From Clostridia bacterium (GTDB lineage: Bacteria > Bacillota > Clostridia > UMGS1840): a stretch of 43,830 bases of DNA. A program made the position numbers and the translations under genes. Position 1 is the stretch's first letter, and every line of letters begins with the position of its first letter. The stretch is taken from positions 1 to 43,830 of the forward strand of contig JAFUIN010000020.1 in assembly GCA_017468465.1 (NCBI GenBank). The letters run 5' to 3'. The notes below the pieces were generated by a model. That model ran no database searches and was not told the DNA's origin. It saw nothing but the letters and a program-made list of their open reading frames with translations. Positions 1,985 to 15,346 of this stretch are shown in pieces.

Positions 1985-3241
1985 TTAGAATAAAATAATA
2001 ATAAATTGAGAAACCAAAACTACCGCAATCAATGCAATAGGATATGTCGCAGCATAAGCAGCCGCAACGTCTTCTGTGCCGGCTGTTCCAATTAAGGTTC
2101 CGAGTGCCGGTGTGCTGGTCATACCGCCGGTAATCGCTCCCAAATTGTTCAGGAGGCTCAATTTCAGGACATATTTTGCAAAAAGATATCCTATAATAAG
2201 AGGTACGATTGTCATGATAATGCCATATACAAAATACATCACATCAAAATATTTCACAAAATCTGCTCCTCCGGGGATACCTGCTCCAACCAAAAAGAGA
2301 ACCAGACCAAGCTCACGGAATAATTTCAGAGTAGACTGTTCCGGCATAATATTTAATTTACCGATTCTTCCGAAATGACCGAATACCAAAGATGCCAGCA
2401 AGCATCCACCGGTAGTAGTCAGAGAAAAACAGGTTCCGGATAAGCCTGCGGAGCTCATGGGAATTTTAATTCTGCCTAAAAATACCCCAACCACTGCTGC
2501 CAATGCAAAAACAGCAAAACCGTGACCATCTAATTCCAATAATTTTCCGTTGAATACTTTTTTCTTGCTGATATCATCGGTTGCCTGAATTAGCTTTGCA
2601 CGTTCTTCGTCCATATTAGCTTTGGTAAGCTTCGGAATCAGCTGAACAAACAACACAACTCCAATTACACCAAAAATATAAGCAATTCCGTGACCAACAG
2701 AAACTAAACTGGTTAGCTCGGGAGCAACAGTCGCTTTTGCCGCAGAAAACGCAGGAGTAGAGGTTAAAGAACCGGATAAAAGACCTACAATCATAGCAAC
2801 GAAACCATCTAAAGAGTCAATGGTTGCACCGAAACCGATTGCTTTCCCCATAAAGATACAGCTAACAGCCGCAAGTCCGCCTGCCAGAATAATAATGAGG
2901 CCCAACAGAACATAGGATTTGAAGTTTTTTTTCATATTACCGAAAAACTTGGGTCCGGCAATGAAGCCAACAGATGTAACGAATAAAATAAGACCTAAAC
3001 TTTCAACAATTTCCAGTGCTTTTTCACCAAAGTCAGCACCGTTGAACAGCAACTGCTGTTCTAAAGAGGGATAAAACAAGGCTCCAAATAACAGTGCCAC
3101 TACAAATACACCGGCATCACCAAGGCAAACACCCTTAATGGTGATTCTACCCAGTGCATATCCGCCAAACAAAATTGCAAAAATGCAAAACATCAAAAAT
3201 GTGATACCGGTAACAGGAATCACACCACCAAACAATGACAT
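1985..3241 (-). CDS. AspT/YidE-type exchanger (putative dicarboxylate or aspartate antiporter)
   Basis: A 418-residue, very hydrophobic protein with the two-fold repeat of the aspartate:alanine exchanger (AspT/YidE/YbjL) family. Each half carries a copy of the family's G-x-x-TSTPA element: LTSTPAFSAA near 160 and MTSTPALGTL near 378. The two halves are joined by a soluble segment near 205-235, shorter than the TrkA-C pair of classical AspT. The ATG at 3241 has an AGGAAG RBS. It is the last gene downstream of frdA, separated by 78 nt with a strong hairpin. From context I infer exchange of fumarate, malate or aspartate for succinate; the substrate is not shown by sequence. Confidence 0.75.
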   Translation of the reverse strand: MSLFGGVIPVTGITFLMFCIFAILFGGYALGRITIKGVCLGDAGVFVVALLFGALFYPSLEQQLLFNGADFGEKALEIVESLGLILFVTSVGFIAGPKFFGNMKKNFKSYVLLGLIIILAGGLAAVSCIFMGKAIGFGATIDSLDGFVAMIVGLLSGSLTSTPAFSAAKATVAPELTSLVSVGHGIAYIFGVIGVVLFVQLIPKLTKANMDEERAKLIQATDDISKKKVFNGKLLELDGHGFAVFALAAVVGVFLGRIKIPMSSAGLSGTCFSLTTTGGCLLASLVFGHFGRIGKLNIMPEQSTLKLFRELGLVLFLVGAGIPGGADFVKYFDVMYFVYGIIMTIVPLIIGYLFAKYVLKLSLLNNLGAITGGMTSTPALGTLIGTAGTEDVAAAYAATYPIALIAVVLVSQFIIILF

Positions 3242-3319: not shown

Positions 3320-4918
3320 TTATCTTTCGTGACGTGCATAATCGGGCAGAAGCATCGGAGAAACACTGTCGTTTGCAATGCCTGCAGCTTCCAATTCTTT
3401 TGCATATGCGTAAATATGGTCGATATTCATATCACCCAAGGTAACATCCTTCGCTTTTTTAGCAGCTGCTTTACCCGCATTTCTGCCAAATACGATAATA
3501 TCCAATAGCGAGTTCCCCATCAGACGGTTTCTGCCGTGAATACCACCAACTGCTTCTCCGGCAACCAGTAAATTGGGAATTGCTTTTGTAAAGCCTTCGC
3601 CACCGATTTCCAAACCACCGTTCTGATAATGCAGAGTGGGATATACCAAAATCGGCTGTTTTCTCATATCAATGCCATAGTTCATATACATGCGAAGCAT
3701 TGCGGGAATTCTTTTTTCAATGGTTCCTTCCCCTCCTAAAATTTCGATCATAGGAGTATCCAGCCATACACCGGAACCAAGCGGAGTATCCACTCCTTTT
3801 CCGTTTGCACATTCACGGATAATCGCAGATGCGGACACGTCTCTGGTTTCTAAGGGATGCGCATATGCTTCCCCGTCTTTGTTTACCAACATTGCCCCCA
3901 GGGAACGAACCTTTTCGGTTACCAATGCACCAAAAATCTGCGACGGATATGCCACACCGGTAGGATGATACTGAATGGTATCCTGATACAAAAGCGGAGC
4001 ACCCGCTCTGTAGCCTAAAATCAAACCGTCAGCTGTTGCACCATAGTGGTTTGAGGTGGGGAAATTCTGATAATGAAGTCTGCCGGCACCACCGGTAGCG
4101 ATAACAACTGTTTTTGCTTTTGCAACCAGATAATCACCTGTTTCCATATTCAGAAGAACTGCACCTGCAACCTGACCCTTGTTATCTTTAATCAATTCAA
4201 CTGCTGAAGTAAATTCTACAACAGGAATGTTACGGTTGATGACTTCGTCGCGGAGAGTTCTCATAATTTCTGCACCGGAGTAGTCTTTACAAGCGTGCAT
4301 TCTTTTGCGAGAGGTTCCGCCGCCGTGAGTGGTAACCATGCGACCGTCTGCATCTTTGTCAAACATAACACCTAAGTCATTTAACCAACGGATTGCATCA
4401 GGAGCCTCCATAACCAGACGCTTCAACAGCTCAGGACGAGCTGCAAAATGACCGCCGCCGAAAGCATCCAGATAATGCTGAACGGGAGAATCGTTCTCTT
4501 TATCAGCAGCCTGAATTCCACCTTCTGCCATCATAGTGTTGGCATCACCGATACGAAGCTTGGTAACAATCATAACATTTGCGCCCGCTTCGTGTGCTTC
4601 AATCGCTGCAGAAGAACCTGCTCCGCCACCACCGATTACCAGCACATCCACATCATAATCAATTTTGGATAAGTCAATATTTTCGTTTAACAAACGGCTG
4701 TTAGAATGAATCAAATCGGTCAACTCACAGGGAGCCTTTTCCCCTTTGTTGGGACCAATTTTAATTTCACCGAAGCCTTCCTTACGGTAGTCAGGATGAT
4801 ACTGTTCAAGGAGAGCCTGTTTTTCGTCAGCAGTCATTCTTCTGGGTTCTGTTTTCATACGCTCTGCTCTGGTCGCTTCCACTTTTTTAATGGATTCCAG
4901 CATAGATTCTGTAAACAT
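3320..4918 (-). CDS. frdA: Soluble fumarate reductase-type flavoprotein subunit
   Basis: A 532-residue FAD protein of the succinate dehydrogenase/fumarate reductase/NadB superfamily, predicted to reduce fumarate to succinate in the cytoplasm. FAD-binding VIGGGGAG spans about 94-101. Counterparts of the E. coli FrdA dicarboxylate contacts appear in order: His318 (HPTG), Thr334-Glu335, Arg359 (ETRD), His430 (HYQNGG) and Arg465 (GRNR). The His that binds FAD covalently in FrdA/SdhA is Asn127 (ANTMMAEGG), as in NadB, so FAD is probably non-covalent. It has an unusual 88-residue N-terminal extension and a short C-terminal domain. frdB lies 14 nt upstream. L-aspartate oxidase is disfavoured because an Fe-S partner is present and nadA/nadC are absent. 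Confidence 0.82.
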   Translation of the reverse strand: MFTESMLESIKKVEATRAERMKTEPRRMTADEKQALLEQYHPDYRKEGFGEIKIGPNKGEKAPCELTDLIHSNSRLLNENIDLSKIDYDVDVLVIGGGGAGSSAAIEAHEAGANVMIVTKLRIGDANTMMAEGGIQAADKENDSPVQHYLDAFGGGHFAARPELLKRLVMEAPDAIRWLNDLGVMFDKDADGRMVTTHGGGTSRKRMHACKDYSGAEIMRTLRDEVINRNIPVVEFTSAVELIKDNKGQVAGAVLLNMETGDYLVAKAKTVVIATGGAGRLHYQNFPTSNHYGATADGLILGYRAGAPLLYQDTIQYHPTGVAYPSQIFGALVTEKVRSLGAMLVNKDGEAYAHPLETRDVSASAIIRECANGKGVDTPLGSGVWLDTPMIEILGGEGTIEKRIPAMLRMYMNYGIDMRKQPILVYPTLHYQNGGLEIGGEGFTKAIPNLLVAGEAVGGIHGRNRLMGNSLLDIIVFGRNAGKAAAKKAKDVTLGDMNIDHIYAYAKELEAAGIANDSVSPMLLPDYARHER

Positions 4919-4932
4919 ATTTTCTCTCCTCC

Positions 4933-5607
4933 TTATTTCTCAATTTCTCTGGTATTGTAGAGTTCTTTCATTTCGGTGATGGGCTTTTGCATAATTTGTT
5001 CAATCAGCGCATCAAATTCACCGTGATTGATTTCTTCTACTCTCTGCTTCAGATGCTCAGTTTCGGGTGCGATATATTTACCGGTTAAACGGCGAGACAA
5101 AAGCCCAACCATCGGATGGGAAATGCCAGCCGGACATCTTACGGAACAGCATCCACAACCTACACAGTCGAAAGACAGCTCTGCACACTTTTCAAATTCG
5201 CCTCTTTGTGCATGTGCAATATACTGCATAACATCCAAGTCCTGTGTGCAGGCCTTGGTGCAGGCATTACAACCGATACAGCTGTAGATTTCGGGATATA
5301 ATTCCATCATAATCTGCTGATTGGGTTTAATATCATTGATATTATAGGTTCTTTTATCAGTGGGGAAAAACGGAATGCTGGCAACATACATGCCTTCCTG
5401 AACCTGCGTCTGACAAGCCAGGCAGGTTTTTAATTCGTTCTGCCCTTTAATGCGGTAAATGGTTGCACAAGCACCGCAAAAACCGTGACGGCATCCGCAT
5501 CCTCTTTTCAGGGTGTAGCCCGCATATTCCATAGCAGTCATAATCGTTAAATCTGCAGGCACCTGATAGCGTTTGCCGAAGAAAAATACATTAACTTTAT
5601 TTTCCAT
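4933..5607 (-). CDS. frdB: Fumarate reductase-type iron-sulfur subunit (2Fe-2S plus two 4Fe-4S)
   Basis: A 224-residue electron-transfer subunit. Numbered from the ATG at 5607, an N-terminal plant-type 2Fe-2S domain has Cys39, 44, 47 and 62. Two 4Fe-4S motifs follow: Cys110-113-116-120 and Cys148-151-154-158. Classical FrdB/SdhB has 2Fe-2S, 4Fe-4S and 3Fe-4S clusters and docks on a membrane anchor. Here the last motif is a full four-Cys 4Fe-4S site and no anchor gene follows, which fits a soluble complex like the thiol:fumarate reductases. A TTG at 5613 is an alternative start; the ATG is preferred and an AAAGGA precedes both. It should wire FrdA to the Hdr/Flox proteins encoded upstream. Confidence 0.82.
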   Translation of the reverse strand: MENKVNVFFFGKRYQVPADLTIMTAMEYAGYTLKRGCGCRHGFCGACATIYRIKGQNELKTCLACQTQVQEGMYVASIPFFPTDKRTYNINDIKPNQQIMMELYPEIYSCIGCNACTKACTQDLDVMQYIAHAQRGEFEKCAELSFDCVGCGCCSVRCPAGISHPMVGLLSRRLTGKYIAPETEHLKQRVEEINHGEFDALIEQIMQKPITEMKELYNTREIEK

Positions 5608-5628
5608 AATCAAAACATCCTTTCTGCA

Positions 5629-6483
5629 TTAGTATTCTGCGGGTAATTCGTCGATTTCGTCGCAACGGAACACGGGACCGTCTTTACATACATATTTGGA
5701 ACCGATATTGCAACGTCCGCATTTTCCTACACCGCATTTCATACGAAGTTCCAAAGTGGTATATACCTGTTCTTTGGAAAATCCCATTTCTATGAGAGCC
5801 GCCAATACGAATTTAATCATAATCGGTGGTCCGCAAACCAATGCAGTTTTGTTATTTTCAAAGCCTAATTCTTTCAGATAGGAAGGAACAAAGCCAACAT
5901 GACCATCCCAGCCATCCTGCTCACGGTCAATTGTGAGATGCACGTTAATGCCCTCCTGTTTTGCCCAAACTTCCTGAATTTCTTTTAAGCCAACCAAATC
6001 ATCCATGCTTCTGGAACCGTATAAAATGTCTACAGTACCGTAGTTTTCGCGGTTGTCAATTACATAATTGATGACAGAGCGAAGAGGAGCCAAACCAATA
6101 CCACCGGCAATAAACAGAAGATTTTTCCCTTTTAATTCAGTTTCTACCGGGAAATTATTTCCGTAGGGACCTCTGACGGTGAGTTCATCACCAACTTCCA
6201 TCGTGTGAAGATAATCAGTTAAAACACCGCATCTTTTAATACTGAATTCCTGATACTCTTTATTGGTGGGAGAAGAAGTGATGGAAAACATTGCCTCTCC
6301 AACACCGGGAACAGAAACCATTGCACATTGACCGGGCAAATGCTCAAACACTTTGCCGCCTTCAGGCGCATTGACACGAAATGTTTTTACATCGGGAGTT
6401 TGCTGAGTAATTTCGGTAATAATGCCGATTTTTGGAATCAAAGTATCCAAATTATAGTTATCATGACAGTGACAATCGCACAT
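5629..6483 (-). CDS. floxA: FAD/NAD(P)-binding oxidoreductase, FloxA-like
   Basis: A 284-residue ferredoxin-reductase-fold protein related to AsrB, hydrogenase gamma subunits and PyrK; the likely NADH entry point. Visible are the FAD-domain MFSITSS (about 65-71) and GPYGNNF (105-111), the nucleotide-binding AGGIGLAP (126-133), CGPPIM (217-222), and a C-terminal 2Fe-2S site with Cys250, 255, 258 and 266. I chose the ATG at 6483 because GGAGG precedes it and it overlaps the previous stop as TAATG; a longer frame to 6579 would intrude about 97 nt into the upstream gene. Its place between Fe-S genes and frdB matches floxA of Hdr-Flox clusters. Confidence 0.85.
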   Translation of the reverse strand: MCDCHCHDNYNLDTLIPKIGIITEITQQTPDVKTFRVNAPEGGKVFEHLPGQCAMVSVPGVGEAMFSITSSPTNKEYQEFSIKRCGVLTDYLHTMEVGDELTVRGPYGNNFPVETELKGKNLLFIAGGIGLAPLRSVINYVIDNRENYGTVDILYGSRSMDDLVGLKEIQEVWAKQEGINVHLTIDREQDGWDGHVGFVPSYLKELGFENNKTALVCGPPIMIKFVLAALIEMGFSKEQVYTTLELRMKCGVGKCGRCNIGSKYVCKDGPVFRCDEIDELPAEY

Positions 6484-7514
6484 TATTTGTCTCCTCCTTC
6501 CTTTTGAAATGCTTTTACAACTTTTACAATATTCAAAGCAGACGGACATTTTTCTACACATCTGCCGCATCCTACACAAGAGTACATTCCATCATTATTT
6601 GCAGGGAAATACACCAACTTGTGCATAAAGCGCTGACGGAACCGCTGCATCTGACTGGTACGGTTGTTACCGTGTGCCATCATGGTAAAATCAGAATACA
6701 TGCAAGAATCCCAGCAACGATAACGCTGAACACCACTTCCAGTGGTATAATCTTTAATATCATAACACTGACAGGTGGGGCAAACAAACGTACAGGTTCC
6801 ACACGCCAGACAGGGCTGATACAACTCTTCCCATAAGGGAGAATCAAACTTTTCGGTTAATACATCACCGTTCCAGCCTTCTAAAGATAAATCCATATAG
6901 GGAAGCTTTTCTACAATGGCTTTGGTTGTTTCCTGCTGCTTCTGCACAGCAGAATCGTCAGCTTCTGCAAACAGCTCCTTCACAGCATCGGTCAAAGCTG
7001 CACCTTTTTCAGTCAACGGATTCCAGTATAGAAAATCGCCAACCAGCCAGGTTGCAACATCTGCTTTCGGATCAGTACAATCAATGCCGAACGCCTTGCA
7101 GAAACAGCTTTCTTCCGGTTCATTACAAGCCAGTGCCACCAAAATACCATGGTCACGACGTGCTTTGTAAAATGTATCAACCGGTTCGGACAAAAAGACT
7201 TTATCCAGCACTTCGATGCCTTTCACATCACATGCTTTGATGCCGAAAACAACAAATTCCTGATTCTGAAGTTCTTCGGGAGTGATAGACAACTTATTTT
7301 CCTCTTTATGACAGGTATATAAGGTTTCGCTCTGCGGAAAAAACGCATCTTTGGGAGATTTTACAGTTTTCAATGTTTCCAAAGAAACATCAGCATCTTC
7401 AGTATATGCTGCAAAGTTTACCTGGTCAGCCACACGAACGGGAAGATACAGCTCTTTGGTTTCTGAAATTTTCCGGAATAATGCCGGTAAATCATTTTTT
7501 GCAATTTGATACAT
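6483..7514 (-). CDS. floxB: 4Fe-4S dicluster protein, AsrA/hydrogenase-beta type (FloxB-like)
   Basis: A 343-residue protein with an N-terminal alpha/beta region and two C-terminal 4Fe-4S motifs, Cys235-238-241-245 (CLACGTCTFVCP) and Cys313-316-319-323 (CVGCGRCVEKCP). Between them lie the RCWDSC and RQRFMHKL elements typical of sulfite reductase subunit A (AsrA) and the beta subunits of NAD(P)-linked NiFe hydrogenases. Such proteins pair with AsrB/HydG-type flavoproteins and relay electrons from NAD(P)H. The ATG at 7514 has an AGGGG RBS; the longer frame starting at 7559 would overlap the upstream gene by 41 nt. The B/C lettering of the Flox subunits is by context and could be swapped. Confidence 0.8.
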   Translation of the reverse strand: MYQIAKNDLPALFRKISETKELYLPVRVADQVNFAAYTEDADVSLETLKTVKSPKDAFFPQSETLYTCHKEENKLSITPEELQNQEFVVFGIKACDVKGIEVLDKVFLSEPVDTFYKARRDHGILVALACNEPEESCFCKAFGIDCTDPKADVATWLVGDFLYWNPLTEKGAALTDAVKELFAEADDSAVQKQQETTKAIVEKLPYMDLSLEGWNGDVLTEKFDSPLWEELYQPCLACGTCTFVCPTCQCYDIKDYTTGSGVQRYRCWDSCMYSDFTMMAHGNNRTSQMQRFRQRFMHKLVYFPANNDGMYSCVGCGRCVEKCPSALNIVKVVKAFQKEGGDK

Positions 7515-7518
7515 CACA

Positions 7519-8487
7519 TTATCCCCTTTCTTCGTTTGGCTCTCTGTCGGAAAATTCAAAGTGAGTTAAGGGAGCCTCCTGGTTAATATCTTCACCGGCA
7601 GTATAGTCACCGTAAAATTCGTTAATATCTTTAATGAATTTTCTATTGAACAAATGAAGCCGGATGCCCTGGGGACAAACTCGACTGCATTCTCCACAAT
7701 CGGTACATCTGCCTGCCACATGAAATGCACGGATAATGTGGAACATTTTTTCCTGGAAAGGATCCACATTCGCTTTTTGAGCGCTGTCAAACTTGGTGCT
7801 GTCGAACACACATTTTCTGCAGCTGCAAGCAGGACATACATTTCTGCAAGCATTACAACGAATACATTTGCTCAATTCTTTCTGGAAAAACTGAAATTTT
7901 TCTTCTGGAGACATTTTTTCGATTTTTTCCACTTCATGAAAACGCTCACTATCTACAGTATCGCGGGATTCCAAAAGGGTTTCATCAAACACAACATGGT
8001 CTTTCCCTTTACAAACATGGCAGCGTTCCAGCATCACATCCTGATAAGAACATTCCTTATCGCCATATAAAGTACCGATTTTCAAAGTATCGCAAGCATC
8101 CTCCATGCCGATACCGGAAATGGATTCAATCCCCTTGATACCTTCTTTTTTGATTTTTTCAATATCCAGTTTGCCTTTGCAGCCAACGCCGATAATATAT
8201 GCTTTGTCGCGGTCTACTCTGTGTTCTTTTAAGAGTTGATTGAAGCTATAGGAATCACAAGGTTTTAAGAATACCAGTGTTTTTCCCTCTTTTTTGGATG
8301 CTTCAATCATATATTTACTTAAGTTTGCACCGCAAAACGCATCGTAAACAAATTCGGAAAGATCTGCTTCGCTTTCAAAATAAGATGGTTCGGGGTTATA
8401 CGCCATATCGCCGGCTTTCCAGCCAAGAACTCTTTGAACTGTTCCGTTTGCCAACAGCTCTTTGGCACGGTTCACTAATTCTTGCAT
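7519..8487 (-). CDS. floxC: 4Fe-4S dicluster protein, FloxC-like
   Basis: A 322-residue protein. The N-terminal half (1-180) has scattered Cys (77, 103, 132, 146, 156, 159), with FLKPCDS and GVGCKGK resembling the FrhB/F420-dehydrogenase beta N-region. The C-terminal half has two 4Fe-4S motifs, Cys208-211-214-218 and Cys261-264-267-271, spaced as in HdrC-type ferredoxins. It overlaps the upstream floxD by 13 nt and has a GGGGGA RBS before the ATG at 8487. Role inferred: electron relay between FloxA/B and HdrA. Confidence 0.75.
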   Translation of the reverse strand: MQELVNRAKELLANGTVQRVLGWKAGDMAYNPEPSYFESEADLSEFVYDAFCGANLSKYMIEASKKEGKTLVFLKPCDSYSFNQLLKEHRVDRDKAYIIGVGCKGKLDIEKIKKEGIKGIESISGIGMEDACDTLKIGTLYGDKECSYQDVMLERCHVCKGKDHVVFDETLLESRDTVDSERFHEVEKIEKMSPEEKFQFFQKELSKCIRCNACRNVCPACSCRKCVFDSTKFDSAQKANVDPFQEKMFHIIRAFHVAGRCTDCGECSRVCPQGIRLHLFNRKFIKDINEFYGDYTAGEDINQEAPLTHFEFSDREPNEERG

Positions 8488-8915
8488 CGTAAATCCCCCA
8501 ATCTGACATTTTCGCCTAAAGATTTGATTTTTTCCACAAATTCATTCATGGTTTGTGAAAATTTTACGCCTTCTGCGGCAGATACCCATTCCACACGGGT
8601 TCTGCCTTTTTCAATACCAAGATAATCCAGCATGGAAAACAGCAAGGTCATACGACGACGAGCATAATAGTTACCGGTAGAATAGTGACAGTCTCCCGGG
8701 TGACATCCGCAAAGAATAACGCCGTCTGCACCTTTTTCAAAGGCTCTTAAAATAAACATCGGATTTACACGGCAGGAACACGGAACTTTGATGATTTTTA
8801 CATCTGCCGGATATGACAATCTGCTGCTTCCTGCTAAGTCTGCACCGGCATAACTGCACCAGTTACAGCAAAATGCAACAATTTTTGGTCTGAATTCGTT
8901 TTCTGTTAACGGCAT
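8475..8915 (-). CDS. floxD: MvhD/FloxD-type [2Fe-2S] electron-transfer subunit
   Basis: A 146-residue protein of the methyl-viologen-reducing hydrogenase delta (MvhD) family, which passes electrons from a donor module to HdrA. Diagnostic motifs: FCCNWCSY (Cys16, 17, 20), CSCRVNPMF (Cys46, 48), GADGVILCGCHPGDCHY (Cys69, 71, 76) and GNYYARRR. GGAGG lies ten bases before the ATG at 8915, which sits inside the 3' end of hdrA (10-nt overlap). No hydrogenase large or small subunit gene is nearby, so the donor is expected to be Flox rather than H2. Confidence 0.9.
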   Translation of the reverse strand: MPLTENEFRPKIVAFCCNWCSYAGADLAGSSRLSYPADVKIIKVPCSCRVNPMFILRAFEKGADGVILCGCHPGDCHYSTGNYYARRRMTLLFSMLDYLGIEKGRTRVEWVSAAEGVKFSQTMNEFVEKIKSLGENVRLGDLRCKN

Positions 8916-10894
8916 ATCGCATCCACCTCCGCAATAATTTGTCTGTTAGAGAAGCCCTGAAGGTCCATAGCACCGGAGGGACAAGTAACGGTACAAGCAC
9001 CGCAGCCCTGACACAAAGCGCCATTTACCTGTGCAACACGTCTTGTTTCACGGATACCGTGATCATTTACTTCTTTTTCTTCATAAGTGATTGCACCATA
9101 GGGGCAAACATTTGCACACTGAGAACAGCCGTTACAAAGCAGTTCATCAGGTTTTGCAGTACAGGGGTTTGTGGTCAGTTTGTCTTTCGCCAGCAAACCG
9201 ATTGCTTTCACCGCTGCCGCACCTGCCTGTGCAACAGTTTCTGGAATATCTTTGGGGCCCTGGCACACACCGGAGAGGAACACCCCTGCTGTGGGAGATT
9301 CTACCGGACGAAGTTTCGGATGTGCTTCGGTTAAGAAATTGTTGGTATCAATACTTGCAGTCAGCATCGTTGCAATCTGACGAACAGAAGCTTCCGGCTC
9401 AATGGCAGTTGCCAAAACAACCATATCTGCTTCTTTTAAGATTTGCTTGTTATCAAGCAGGTCAGAGCCCTGAACCAACAGTTTCCCATTGGGCAGCGGA
9501 GCAACCTTACCAACCTGACCTTTTACATAATTCACGCCATATTCTTCTACAGCACGTCTGTAAAACTCGTCAAAGTTTTTACCCGGAGTACGAACGTCAA
9601 TATAAAATACAGTTACGTTGACATCCGGATATTTGTCACGAATAAGCATTGCGTGTTTTGCAGTATACATACAGCAGATTTTAGAGCAGTAGCTTTTTCC
9701 GCGATTATCGGAGCATCGGCTGCCTACACACTGAATGAATACCATTTCTTTGGGAGCTTTCCCGTCGGAAAGACGTTCCAGATGTCCTTTGGTAGGACCT
9801 GCCGCATTCATAATACGCTCCAACTCCAATGAGGTGATAACGTCTTTGCTCTGGTTGTAAGCATATTCGTCATAGTTATCCAATTTAATGGTATCAAAAC
9901 CGGTTGCTACAACGATAGCACCGTATTTTTCAGTAATAATTTCATCCTTCTGGTTATAATCAATCGCGCCAGCCTGACAAACCTTTTCACAAACACCGCA
10001 TTTGCCGGTTTTGAATTTGATACAAGCATCACGGTCAATGACCGGAACATTGGGAATCGCCTGTGCAAAGGGAGTATAAATGGCACTTCTGGTATTTAAG
10101 CCGCGGTTAAACTCGTTCAAAGATTTTTTGGACGGACATTTTTCCTGACAAACACCGCATCCGGTACATTTTGCACTGTCAACACTTCTTGCTTTTTTAC
10201 GGATATCTACAGTAAAATCACCAACAAAGCCGGTAACCTTATCGACTTCGCTGTAGGTATAAATGTTGATTTTTTCGTGTGCTGCAGCTTCCACCATTTT
10301 GGGAGTCAGAATACAAGCGGAACAGTCCAAAGTGGGGAATGTTTTATCAAGCTGAGACATTCTGCCGCCGATGGAAGGTGTTTTTTCAACAATATCTACT
10401 TCATAACCTGCATCTGCAATATCCAGAGCAGTCTGTATTCCTGCAATACCGCCGCCGATTACCAACGCACGTTTGGTTACGCGGCTTTCGCCCGCCTGCA
10501 ATGGTGTGTTTAAGTTTACCTTTGCAATCGCAGCTCTTGCCAGAATCACAGCTTTTTTAGTAGCTTCTTCCATATCCTTATGAATCCAGGAGCAATGCTC
10601 ACGAATGTTGGCAATTTCCACCATATACGGATTTAACCCTGCACGTTCTGCAGCTTTTCTAAAGGTTGCTTCGTGCATACGGGGTGAGCAGGAACAAACA
10701 ACAATTCCTGTCAATTTCTTTTCTTTCACCGCTTCTAAAATTTTCATCTGACCGGCTTCAGAACACATATAAGGATAGTCTTCCGCATGGCAAACACCAG
10801 GTTCGCTCAAAACGGTTTCTACCACTTTTTTTACATCTACCGTTGCAGCAATGTTACTGCCGCAATGGCATACAAAAACTCCAATTCTCTGCAT
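8906..10894 (-). CDS. hdrA: Heterodisulfide reductase-like subunit A, electron-bifurcating flavoprotein
   Basis: A 662-residue HdrA. Numbered from ATG 10894, a Cys-containing N-terminal domain (FVCHCGSN; CSCSPRMHE near 67-75) precedes the FAD Rossmann motif VIGGGIAG (145-152) and the HdrA signature LDCSACILTPKM. An inserted 4Fe-4S ferredoxin domain follows (CTGCGVCQEKCP near 243-254), then a second Cys set near 299-306 and a C-terminal di-cluster ferredoxin (CNGCSQCANVCP 587-598, CQGCGACTVTCP 628-639). HdrA FAD is the known bifurcation site in methanogen Hdr complexes. A GTG nine bases upstream is in frame but poorly placed relative to the GAGGTG RBS. hdrC ends 5 nt upstream. Confidence 0.93.
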   Translation of the reverse strand: MQRIGVFVCHCGSNIAATVDVKKVVETVLSEPGVCHAEDYPYMCSEAGQMKILEAVKEKKLTGIVVCSCSPRMHEATFRKAAERAGLNPYMVEIANIREHCSWIHKDMEEATKKAVILARAAIAKVNLNTPLQAGESRVTKRALVIGGGIAGIQTALDIADAGYEVDIVEKTPSIGGRMSQLDKTFPTLDCSACILTPKMVEAAAHEKINIYTYSEVDKVTGFVGDFTVDIRKKARSVDSAKCTGCGVCQEKCPSKKSLNEFNRGLNTRSAIYTPFAQAIPNVPVIDRDACIKFKTGKCGVCEKVCQAGAIDYNQKDEIITEKYGAIVVATGFDTIKLDNYDEYAYNQSKDVITSLELERIMNAAGPTKGHLERLSDGKAPKEMVFIQCVGSRCSDNRGKSYCSKICCMYTAKHAMLIRDKYPDVNVTVFYIDVRTPGKNFDEFYRRAVEEYGVNYVKGQVGKVAPLPNGKLLVQGSDLLDNKQILKEADMVVLATAIEPEASVRQIATMLTASIDTNNFLTEAHPKLRPVESPTAGVFLSGVCQGPKDIPETVAQAGAAAVKAIGLLAKDKLTTNPCTAKPDELLCNGCSQCANVCPYGAITYEEKEVNDHGIRETRRVAQVNGALCQGCGACTVTCPSGAMDLQGFSNRQIIAEVDAICR

Positions 10895-10899
10895 TTTTC

Positions 10900-11286
10900 T
10901 CACCTCTTATATCTTCTGAATGCGCTGACTAAAAGCTGCTGCGGAAGTTCCTCATCCAAAAGCTCGGGAATTTCATCTGCACTTAAATAATCACCGCCGC
11001 GTTCTCTTACAACAATCTGACGTGCTGCATCAATGAGCTTGCCGGGTTTCACATCACGCGGGCAACGCTCTACACATGCAAAGCAGGAAAGGCATTTCCA
11101 CAACGATTTAGAATCAGCCAATGCTTCAATATCTTCGTTTAATACATAAGAAACAAACTGATGAGGTTTAATATCCATTTCGTTGTACGAAGGACAGGTT
11201 GCAGAGCATTTTCCGCATTTCATGCATTTATAAGGATTCACTCCGCTGATTTCTTTAATTTTTTCAGAGTAGTTTCTGTGACTCAT
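10900..11286 (-). CDS. hdrC: Heterodisulfide reductase-like subunit C
   Basis: A 128-residue di-[4Fe-4S] ferredoxin-like protein with Cys21-24-27-31 (CMKCGKCSATCP) and Cys65-68-71-75 (CLSCFACVERCP), the HdrC arrangement. It relays electrons between HdrA and HdrB. Its ATG overlaps the hdrB stop as ATGA, indicating translational coupling. Confidence 0.92.
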   Translation of the reverse strand: MSHRNYSEKIKEISGVNPYKCMKCGKCSATCPSYNEMDIKPHQFVSYVLNEDIEALADSKSLWKCLSCFACVERCPRDVKPGKLIDAARQIVVRERGGDYLSADEIPELLDEELPQQLLVSAFRRYKR

Positions 11287-12080
11287 TTTTTCTCCGCCTC
11301 CTCTTTTACACCAAGGGCTTCTGCCAATAACTCTGTGAAATAATATACAGGCAAGGTTTCCTTTTGTGCCTTGTTCAGATTATACATACAAAGAGGGCAA
11401 GCAGTAATTAACATATCTGCACCAAACCCTTTTGCGCTTTCTGTAATGGTGTCACACATTGATTTTGCCATTTCTTTTTCTTTTAGGGAAATATATCCGC
11501 CGCAACATTCATTGCGGTAGGGATAAACAACCGGTTCTGCACCCAGTGCACGAATAAAATCTTCCATAATTTTCGGATTTTCCGGATTATCAAATGCCAT
11601 AACCTTACCGGGACGAAGCAACAGACATCCATAGTAAGCACCGATTTTTTTCCCGGTTAAAGGATTGGTAACTTTTTCTTTCAGTTTATCAAATCCAATT
11701 TTATCACGAAGAACTTCGAGATAATGAAGTACATTTGTTTCGCCGCTGTATGGCTCCGAAAGATTCATATAATTATTGGCACGTGTTCTGATGTCATCCA
11801 CATGTTTCATATCGTCATTCACACGTTTCACAACATGATAACACGCAGAACAAACTGTAACAAGCTCCTGCCCTTTTTCTTTCGCATCATTCAGCACACG
11901 AACGGAAGAAAGCTTCGTTGCAATTTCATCATTTCCAAGCGGATATACACCGCCACAGCATTGCCAGTTTTCAATTTCTTCCAGTTCAAAGCCCAACACC
12001 TCAGCACAGGTTCTTGCATAACGGTCAAGGTCTTTCGCTTTGTTTTTCAGGGTACAACCCGGATAATAACTATACTTCAT
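11283..12080 (-). CDS. hdrB: Heterodisulfide reductase-like subunit B with two CCG motifs
   Basis: A 265-residue protein with two complete CCG domains: Cys9, Cys41-42, Cys77, Cys80, and Cys152, Cys192-193, Cys228, Cys231. In methanogen HdrB these ligate non-cubane [4Fe-4S] clusters that reduce CoM-S-S-CoB. Intact ligands suggest a working redox centre, but a bacterium of this type should lack that substrate, so the partner here is inferred to be FrdAB or an unknown disulfide. First gene of the operon; AAGGA lies before the ATG at 12080. Confidence 0.92.
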   Translation of the reverse strand: MKYSYYPGCTLKNKAKDLDRYARTCAEVLGFELEEIENWQCCGGVYPLGNDEIATKLSSVRVLNDAKEKGQELVTVCSACYHVVKRVNDDMKHVDDIRTRANNYMNLSEPYSGETNVLHYLEVLRDKIGFDKLKEKVTNPLTGKKIGAYYGCLLLRPGKVMAFDNPENPKIMEDFIRALGAEPVVYPYRNECCGGYISLKEKEMAKSMCDTITESAKGFGADMLITACPLCMYNLNKAQKETLPVYYFTELLAEALGVKEEAEKK

Positions 12081-12171
12081 ACTCAGAGTTCCTTTCTGTC
12101 AAATTTCTCTGTACTTGTATCTACGGTCATTTGCCAAAACAACCGATTGATTTTTTCTTTTTCGCTTTTGT

Positions 12172-12189
12172 TTGTTAAAAAAATAACAA
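12172..12189. promoter_or_regulatory. Rex-like redox operator in the hdr operon leader
   Basis: An 18-bp palindrome with arms TTGTTA and TAACAA separated by six A:T pairs. It matches the clostridial Rex consensus TTGTTAA-N4-TTAACAA at 13 of 14 fixed positions. Rex represses fermentation and respiration genes when NADH/NAD+ is low. The site is about 40-55 nt downstream of the predicted start, where a bound repressor would act as a road-block. No rex gene is in the window. Confidence 0.65.
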
Positions 12190-12232: not shown

Positions 12233-12261
12233 ATTGTAGCATACTTTTCATGATTGCACAA
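12233..12261 (-). promoter_or_regulatory. Predicted promoter of the hdr-flox-frd operon
   Basis: On the minus strand an extended -10 TGCTACAAT (hexamer TACAAT, 12233-12238) lies 17 bp from a weak -35 TTGTGC (12256-12261). It is the best sigma-A match upstream of hdrB. Confidence 0.6.
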
Positions 12262-12355: not shown

Positions 12356-12392
12356 CAAAAATGCACCTTCTGCTCGAGGTCAGAAGGTGCAT
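12356..12392 (-). terminator. Intrinsic terminator of the sodium symporter gene
   Basis: A perfect 12-bp stem (12361-12372 with 12381-12392) with an eight-base loop, followed by five T on the minus strand. Confidence 0.9.
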
Positions 12393-12402
12393 TCTTAAAA
12401 AG

Positions 12403-14448: not shown

Positions 14449-14494
14449 GTTCACAGAATTTTCACAAATTACATAAAGAGAGGTACTCCCTTTG

Positions 14495-15346
14495 ATGAGA
14501 AAAGAAGGAAGAAGAATCAAAACCGGACCTGCAATGGATGCGGTTGCCGCATTTATTATGCCGAATCGAGTTGGGGCTTCCAACACATTTCACGCCGTTG
14601 CAGAAATTGGAAATTGCGAAAGCTTTATTCGTGAAAAACGTGCCGAGGGCTATTCCTCTTTCGGCATGATGCACATTTTTATGGCAGCATATGTTCGTGT
14701 GGTTTCAGAGCTTCCGGGAATCAACCGATTTATCCGCGGTCAAAGATTGTATGCCCGAAACGGCATAGAAATCTGTATGGCAATCAAAAAAGAACTGAAG
14801 CTGAACGCTCCGGAAACCGTTATCAAGCTGTATGCCTCCCCTTGCGATACTGCCGCTACCATATACGAGAAGTTAACAGCAGAAATTGCAGAAAATAAAA
14901 AAGAAGGCGACCGCAATTCTATGGACAGTGCTATCAAGGTTTTGGTCAGTCTCCCCGGAATTCTGCTAAAATGTGTTGTTTCATTCTTAAAAATGCTGGA
15001 CTATTTCGGGTTGCTCCCCCGCTTTCTTACAAAATTAAGTCCGTTTCACGGTTCTTTGTTTATCACCAATCTGGGTTCTTTGGGAATCCCTCCGGTGTGT
15101 CATCATTTATACGACTTTGGTAATCTCCCTGTTTTTATCGCAATGGGAAAAAAGAGAAGCGAATATGTCATGGATAAAACCGGTGAAGTTGAAAAAAAAC
15201 GCTTTATTGATTTCACTGTAGTTTGTGATGAAAGAATTTGTGATGGTCACTACTACGCCAGTGCATTCAAGAGACTGAAGAAGCTAATCGAAAATCCGGA
15301 AGAATTGTTTCTTCCTCCAAAAAACATCATAGAAGATATCAAATAA
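14495..15346 (+). CDS. Stand-alone 2-oxoacid dehydrogenase E2/CAT-fold protein, catalytic His replaced
   Basis: A 283-residue protein resembling the catalytic domain of dihydrolipoamide acyltransferases but lacking lipoyl and peripheral-subunit domains. The C-terminal element that reads DHRxxDG in active E2 and CAT enzymes reads DERICDG here (Glu246 in the His position), followed by the usual FKRLKKLIENPEEL helix. A hydrophobic stretch at about 147-180 (LVSLPGILLKCVVSFLKML) is unusual and could contact membrane. AGAGAGG precedes the start; a TTG three bases upstream is an alternative. With the general base missing, acyl transfer by the standard mechanism is doubtful. It has its own promoter and terminator and no E1 or E3 neighbour. 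Confidence 0.75.
   Translation: MRKEGRRIKTGPAMDAVAAFIMPNRVGASNTFHAVAEIGNCESFIREKRAEGYSSFGMMHIFMAAYVRVVSELPGINRFIRGQRLYARNGIEICMAIKKELKLNAPETVIKLYASPCDTAATIYEKLTAEIAENKKEGDRNSMDSAIKVLVSLPGILLKCVVSFLKMLDYFGLLPRFLTKLSPFHGSLFITNLGSLGIPPVCHHLYDFGNLPVFIAMGKKRSEYVMDKTGEVEKKRFIDFTVVCDERICDGHYYASAFKRLKKLIENPEELFLPPKNIIEDIK

Follow-up and report, generated by a model that had tools for sequence, protein, structure and literature searches.

A conserved predicted Rex operator in the leader of a proposed Flx-Hdr-linked fumarate reductase operon in Clostridia

The window analysed here, a 43,830-nucleotide stretch of DNA from a Clostridia bacterium, carries on its minus strand the compact operon hdrBCA-flxDCBA-frdBA, which runs from position 12080 to 3320 and brings together in one unit hdrABC, flxABCD and the genes for a fumarate reductase flavoprotein and its iron-sulfur subunit. 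The first gene, hdrB (11283-12080), encodes a CCG-domain protein resembling heterodisulfide reductase subunit B and is followed by an hdrC-like gene for a 4Fe-4S protein (10900-11286) and by hdrA (8906-10903), whose HdrA2-like product, with FAD and 4Fe-4S, is the presumed site of bifurcation. The Flx genes comprise flxD (MvhD/FlpD; 8475-8915), a gene for a 4Fe-4S protein named flxC-like from its position (7519-8487), flxB (AsrA/sulfhydrogenase beta-like; 6483-7559) and flxA (5629-6579), the AsrB-like product of which has FAD- and NAD(P)-binding domains and is the presumed NADH-entry subunit. An frdB-like 2Fe-2S/4Fe-4S protein (4933-5613) and an frdA-like FAD flavoprotein (3320-4918) are encoded next, and the last gene, often conserved and also on the minus strand, specifies an AspT-like antiporter (1985-3241) that may exchange C4-dicarboxylates or aspartate. 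Elsewhere in the window, an unusual fusion of an ACT domain to a metallo-beta-lactamase-fold domain lies beside the operon (224-1660), and a stand-alone 2-oxoacid dehydrogenase acyltransferase-like protein of 284 amino acids (14492-15346) matches only part of the catalytic domain.

In an alignment with succinate dehydrogenase/fumarate reductase chains, the frdA-like flavoprotein displays the motifs IQYHPTG, VTEKVR, RDV, PTLHY and GRNRL, the aligned His, Thr/Glu, Arg, His and Arg of which we take to be the FrdA/SdhA catalytic residues. Since the sequence relatives of this flavoprotein also include L-aspartate oxidase, fumarate should be regarded as its predicted substrate. The earlier assignment of the operon to a bifurcating fumarate reductase nevertheless holds, because these residues are kept and the same type of operon has been proposed to be bifurcating (PMC7282089). 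Even in the reference organism, a bifurcating, Flx-Hdr-linked fumarate reductase has the status of a proposal (Koendjbiharie and van Kranenburg 2019 preprint, as cited in PMC7282089). The 'succinate operon' of Pseudoclostridium thermosuccinogenes contains fumarase, Flx-Hdr, fumarate reductase and a putative transporter (PMC7282089); the window operon shares with it the order of Flx-Hdr genes followed by two fumarate reductase genes and a transporter-like gene, but contains neither fumarase nor malate dehydrogenase (mdh) genes and ends with the AspT-like antiporter. The FlxABCD-HdrABC system of Desulfovibrio vulgaris has the same FlxABCD and HdrABC components but, going by the title of the cited work, serves ethanol metabolism and not fumarate (Ramos 2015, as cited in PMC7282089).

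Upstream of hdrB, a promoter is predicted on the minus strand at 12233-12261 from the sequence and a four-genome alignment, with a -35-like TTGTGC (12261-12256), a 17-nt spacer and an extended -10 element, TGCTACAAT (12241-12233); the elements GCTTGT and TGnTAnAAT are conserved in the four aligned genomes of the genus. Further upstream, a terminator-like hairpin of 17 pairs on the same strand (12356-12397) ends the gene for a sodium-dependent transporter, and the operon therefore appears to begin its own transcription unit. Between the conserved promoter and the ribosome-binding site of hdrB, AGAAAGGA (12090-12097, minus strand), the untranslated leader contains the palindrome TTGTTAAAAAAATAACAA (12172-12189), which matches TTGTTA-N6-TAACAA at 12/12 positions. 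Its agreement with the clostridial (Clostridiaceae) Rex consensus TTGTTAANNNNTTAACAA (Ravcheev 2012, as cited in PMC8457756) extends to 13 of the 14 fixed positions, with an A instead of T at position 12 as the sole deviation, which confirms the near-perfect Rex operator described in the sequence-only reading; both this consensus and the published motif of T. ethanolicus Rex, ATTGTTANNNNNNTAACAAT (PMC5886521), represent the same motif as the site at 12172-12189. The predicted operator starts 43 nt past the end of the extended -10, at about +37 to +55 of the transcript for a start point predicted at about 12226, and its other end is 91 nt from the hdrB ATG (12080), so that the earlier placement just downstream of the promoter is approximately correct. 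In its motif, its location in the 5' untranslated region or promoter and its connection with NADH metabolism, the site resembles known clostridial Rex operators (PMC8457756; Caproicibacterium table in PMC9600882), from which it differs in its target, an Flx-Hdr-linked fumarate reductase operon.

Conservation within the genus sets the site apart from its surroundings. Five genomes were compared, the organism's own (G000) and G001-G004, and hdrB was found in all but G002. In the alignment of the four corresponding leaders, all 18 operator columns are invariant, whereas only 25% of the leader columns outside the operator are invariant and about 75% vary; indeed, the operator 18-mer is the longest invariant run of the alignment, even when its coding part is counted. 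No perfect site occurs in G002, the congener without the operon.

The site also recurs with the operon across genera, which lends further support to its reading as a Rex operator. A perfect site was found in 7 of 88 hdrB leaders, against 0 in shuffles; these seven include the organism's own leader (L011), L012 and L021, with one near-duplicate pair among them, and two from other lineages with unrelated leaders (L042 and L081). In most relatives, an additional malate/lactate-type dehydrogenase gene precedes hdrB and the site then lies before the dehydrogenase gene. Of 65 such mdh-type promoters, 55 contain a site when up to two mismatches are allowed, compared with about 3.7 in shuffles and 6 for the reversed pattern; when only one is allowed, the corresponding counts are 29, 0.2 and 0. 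In the other 10 of the 65, as well as in several loci in which hdrB comes first, no site with up to two mismatches lies within 300 bp. Because the 65 loci are related and stem from a single HdrA-seeded search, they are not 65 independent events. When similar promoters were grouped, sites with no more than one mismatch were present in 28 of 76 dissimilar groups (0.23 expected), a treatment that corrects only partly for the kinship among mdh-type loci. Among 34 distinct sites, 33 have A at position 7, which was not used in the selection, and 22 have T at position 12; both bases are those of the Rex consensus. In more distant genomes, in which the operon has the order dehydrogenase-fumC-hdr, good sites are present at the operon head in two of four loci, about 1.0-1.3 kb before fumC (TTGTTAAAAATATAACAA in L148 and TTGATAATTTTTTAACAA in L150), while L147 lacks a site and L149 offers nothing better than a poor match where a coding region ends.

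The dehydrogenase at the head of the relatives' operons scores above the cut-off of the NCBIfam L-lactate dehydrogenase model. Lactate dehydrogenases carry Gln at the substrate-specificity position, at which this protein has Arg (in ARKPGQTR). This residue speaks against a plain lactate dehydrogenase and makes malate dehydrogenase the more likely identity of the predicted enzyme.

A rex gene, the presence of which was a check on the sequence-only reading, was found in the organism's genome (G000:C6:82928). Its product matches PF06971 (E 7.9e-22), contains the Rossmann motif GAGNLG and has as its best PDB match 3wg9, a Rex protein (E 2.4e-72), from which its near-identical recognition segment, TASQVRQDLNNFGGFGQQGYGYNV, differs by one substitution. 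The gene is directly downstream of what by eye is an isocitrate-dehydrogenase-like gene, an arrangement comparable with the acn-...-icd-rex operon of Caproicibacterium (PMC9600882). From the site, its conserved association with the operon, a rex gene whose product has a near-identical DNA-binding segment, the gene content and the active-site residues, we interpret 12172-12189 as the Rex operator of hdrBCA-flxDCBA-frdBA, through which the operon would be repressed at low NADH/NAD+ and expressed upon NADH-triggered release, an interpretation to which we assign a probability of roughly 0.88.

The half-sites of Crp/Fnr-family regulators resemble those of Rex, and a site for an Fnr- or HcpR-type protein (TTGT.A-N6-T.ACAA) would therefore look similar to TTGTTA-N6-TAACAA; a Crp-type helix-turn-helix domain above the cut-off is indeed encoded in G004. 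On the other hand, a search with PF13545, the Crp/Fnr-type helix-turn-helix family, which gave matches in all control genomes, returned none in G000, G002 or G003, although the first (96% complete) and the last of these have the perfect site, and the A that prevails at position 7 agrees with the 14-position Rex consensus. A Crp/Fnr-type regulator is thus an improbable owner of the site. An even smaller probability attaches to the inverted repeat acting as an RNA hairpin, as an attenuator or stability element: the repeat is part of the predicted leader and pairs as a 6-bp hairpin when the leader is folded to minimum energy, but the leader folds no better than shuffled sequences (z -1.33; 25 of 200 shuffles as good), pair-breaking changes outnumber compensatory ones by 34 to 3 among the 34 distinct sites (with 11 more one-sided G-U changes), and the distance from the site to the start codon ranges from about 13 to over 200 nt. 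The hairpin was rejected on folding and covariation.

The window contains a single perfect match to TTGTTA-N6-TAACAA, that at 12172-12189. In the genome (1.51 Mb, 96% complete) there are three, compared with two of the reversed control; allowing up to one mismatch gives 9 and 13, respectively. The motif is thus not enriched in the window or the genome relative to shuffles or the reversed control, and its counts give no sign of a large Rex regulon. The second perfect copy lies inside an integrase coding sequence. The third is located before pyrE, directly after a strong extended -10 (L001 1501-1518; G000:C9:87017-87034), but is absent from both congeneric pyrE leaders compared, and is therefore probably due to chance or specific to the lineage. 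Copy number by itself does not establish the operator; comparative conservation does. That the leader site is itself a functionless AT-rich palindrome, as the unremarkable genomic count and the copy within the integrase gene might suggest, is the least probable explanation of all, given an 18-mer conserved in an otherwise diverged leader and its repeated occurrence at this operon in different genera, which far exceeds what shuffles and the reversed pattern give.

With a relaxed motif, Rex-like sites were found before pgk and gap, the one at gap overlapping a -35 box. In all five genomes of the genus (L006 1501-1518 in the organism itself, L143, L144, L146 and G004:C63:95738), the sequence TTGATA-N6-TAACAA precedes pgk by about 130 nt, with a conserved promoter downstream of it, and is likely to be a second Rex site. 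A Rex-like palindrome before gap is conserved in four genomes, that is, in all of those in which gap was found (L130 1543-1560, L138, L139 and L140), but is weak evidence because it overlaps the -35 box TTGATA. The 18-mer at gap, TTGACAAAAAAATATCAA, is repeated before a membrane protein gene that by eye is sodium:alanine symporter-like (L129 1590-1607; G000:C9:17589). Both pgk and gap correspond to NADH-producing or neutral steps, yet have relaxed sites, and in C. thermocellum glycolytic genes are known to possess Rex sites (PMC8457756). Since glycolytic genes for NADH-producing steps can be Rex targets as well, the operator alone is no proof of an NADH-oxidizing role, and the earlier claim that it independently supports such a role was too strong.

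The manner in which the switch may operate can be sketched from other Rex and Flx-Hdr systems, from which the binding of Rex, its NADH-dependent release, its action as a roadblock and the bifurcation are all taken. At a low NADH/NAD+ ratio, a Rex dimer would occupy the leader just inside the transcribed region and block transcription as a roadblock; upon build-up of NADH, Rex would bind the dinucleotide and leave the operator, allowing expression of the operon. The Flx-Hdr complex would then oxidize NADH, with fumarate, reduced to succinate, as the high-potential acceptor and ferredoxin as the low-potential acceptor, and this flow of electrons would lower NADH again. The equivalent operon of P. 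thermosuccinogenes is up about fourfold under CO2 limitation, for which the authors consider a possible excess of NADH (PMC7282089), and these data fit NADH-triggered expression; Rex is mentioned nowhere in that report.

The Rex operator reading implies that succinate production from surplus NADH may be switched on by NADH itself, as far as can be predicted from sequence. On balance, and with distinctly less assurance than for the operator itself, we favour a broader proposal in which the reductive succinate branch (the malate-type dehydrogenase, sometimes fumarase, Flx-Hdr and fumarate reductase) forms, in many gut genomes labelled Lachnospiraceae or Oscillospiraceae, a single unit under the control of Rex, which would act as an NADH-gated overflow valve, also make reduced ferredoxin and be a target new to the Rex regulon. 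The operon was not found as a Rex target in the open-access literature searched, a scope outside which the main Rex regulon papers (Ravcheev 2012; Zhang 2014) fall. Motif and operon are each of an already known kind; the link between the two, with its broad conservation, appears to be new. In many gut Clostridia, this link connects the recently proposed, putative Flx-Hdr-linked fumarate reductase with a well understood NADH sensor. It offers a direct test of when this enzyme is made, and it speaks for succinate formation in these bacteria serving as a sink for NADH while also providing reduced ferredoxin.

Two further observations concern the distribution of the operon. In the assembly RGIG4645, two contigs (L022 and L023) carry the same operon and show identical percentages, which probably reflects an assembly duplication. 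Across the genomes labelled Lachnospiraceae and Oscillospiraceae (L021-L100), HdrA is 87-98% identical at the protein level, an identity across labels that suggests either strong constraint or possible lateral spread of the whole nine-gene block.
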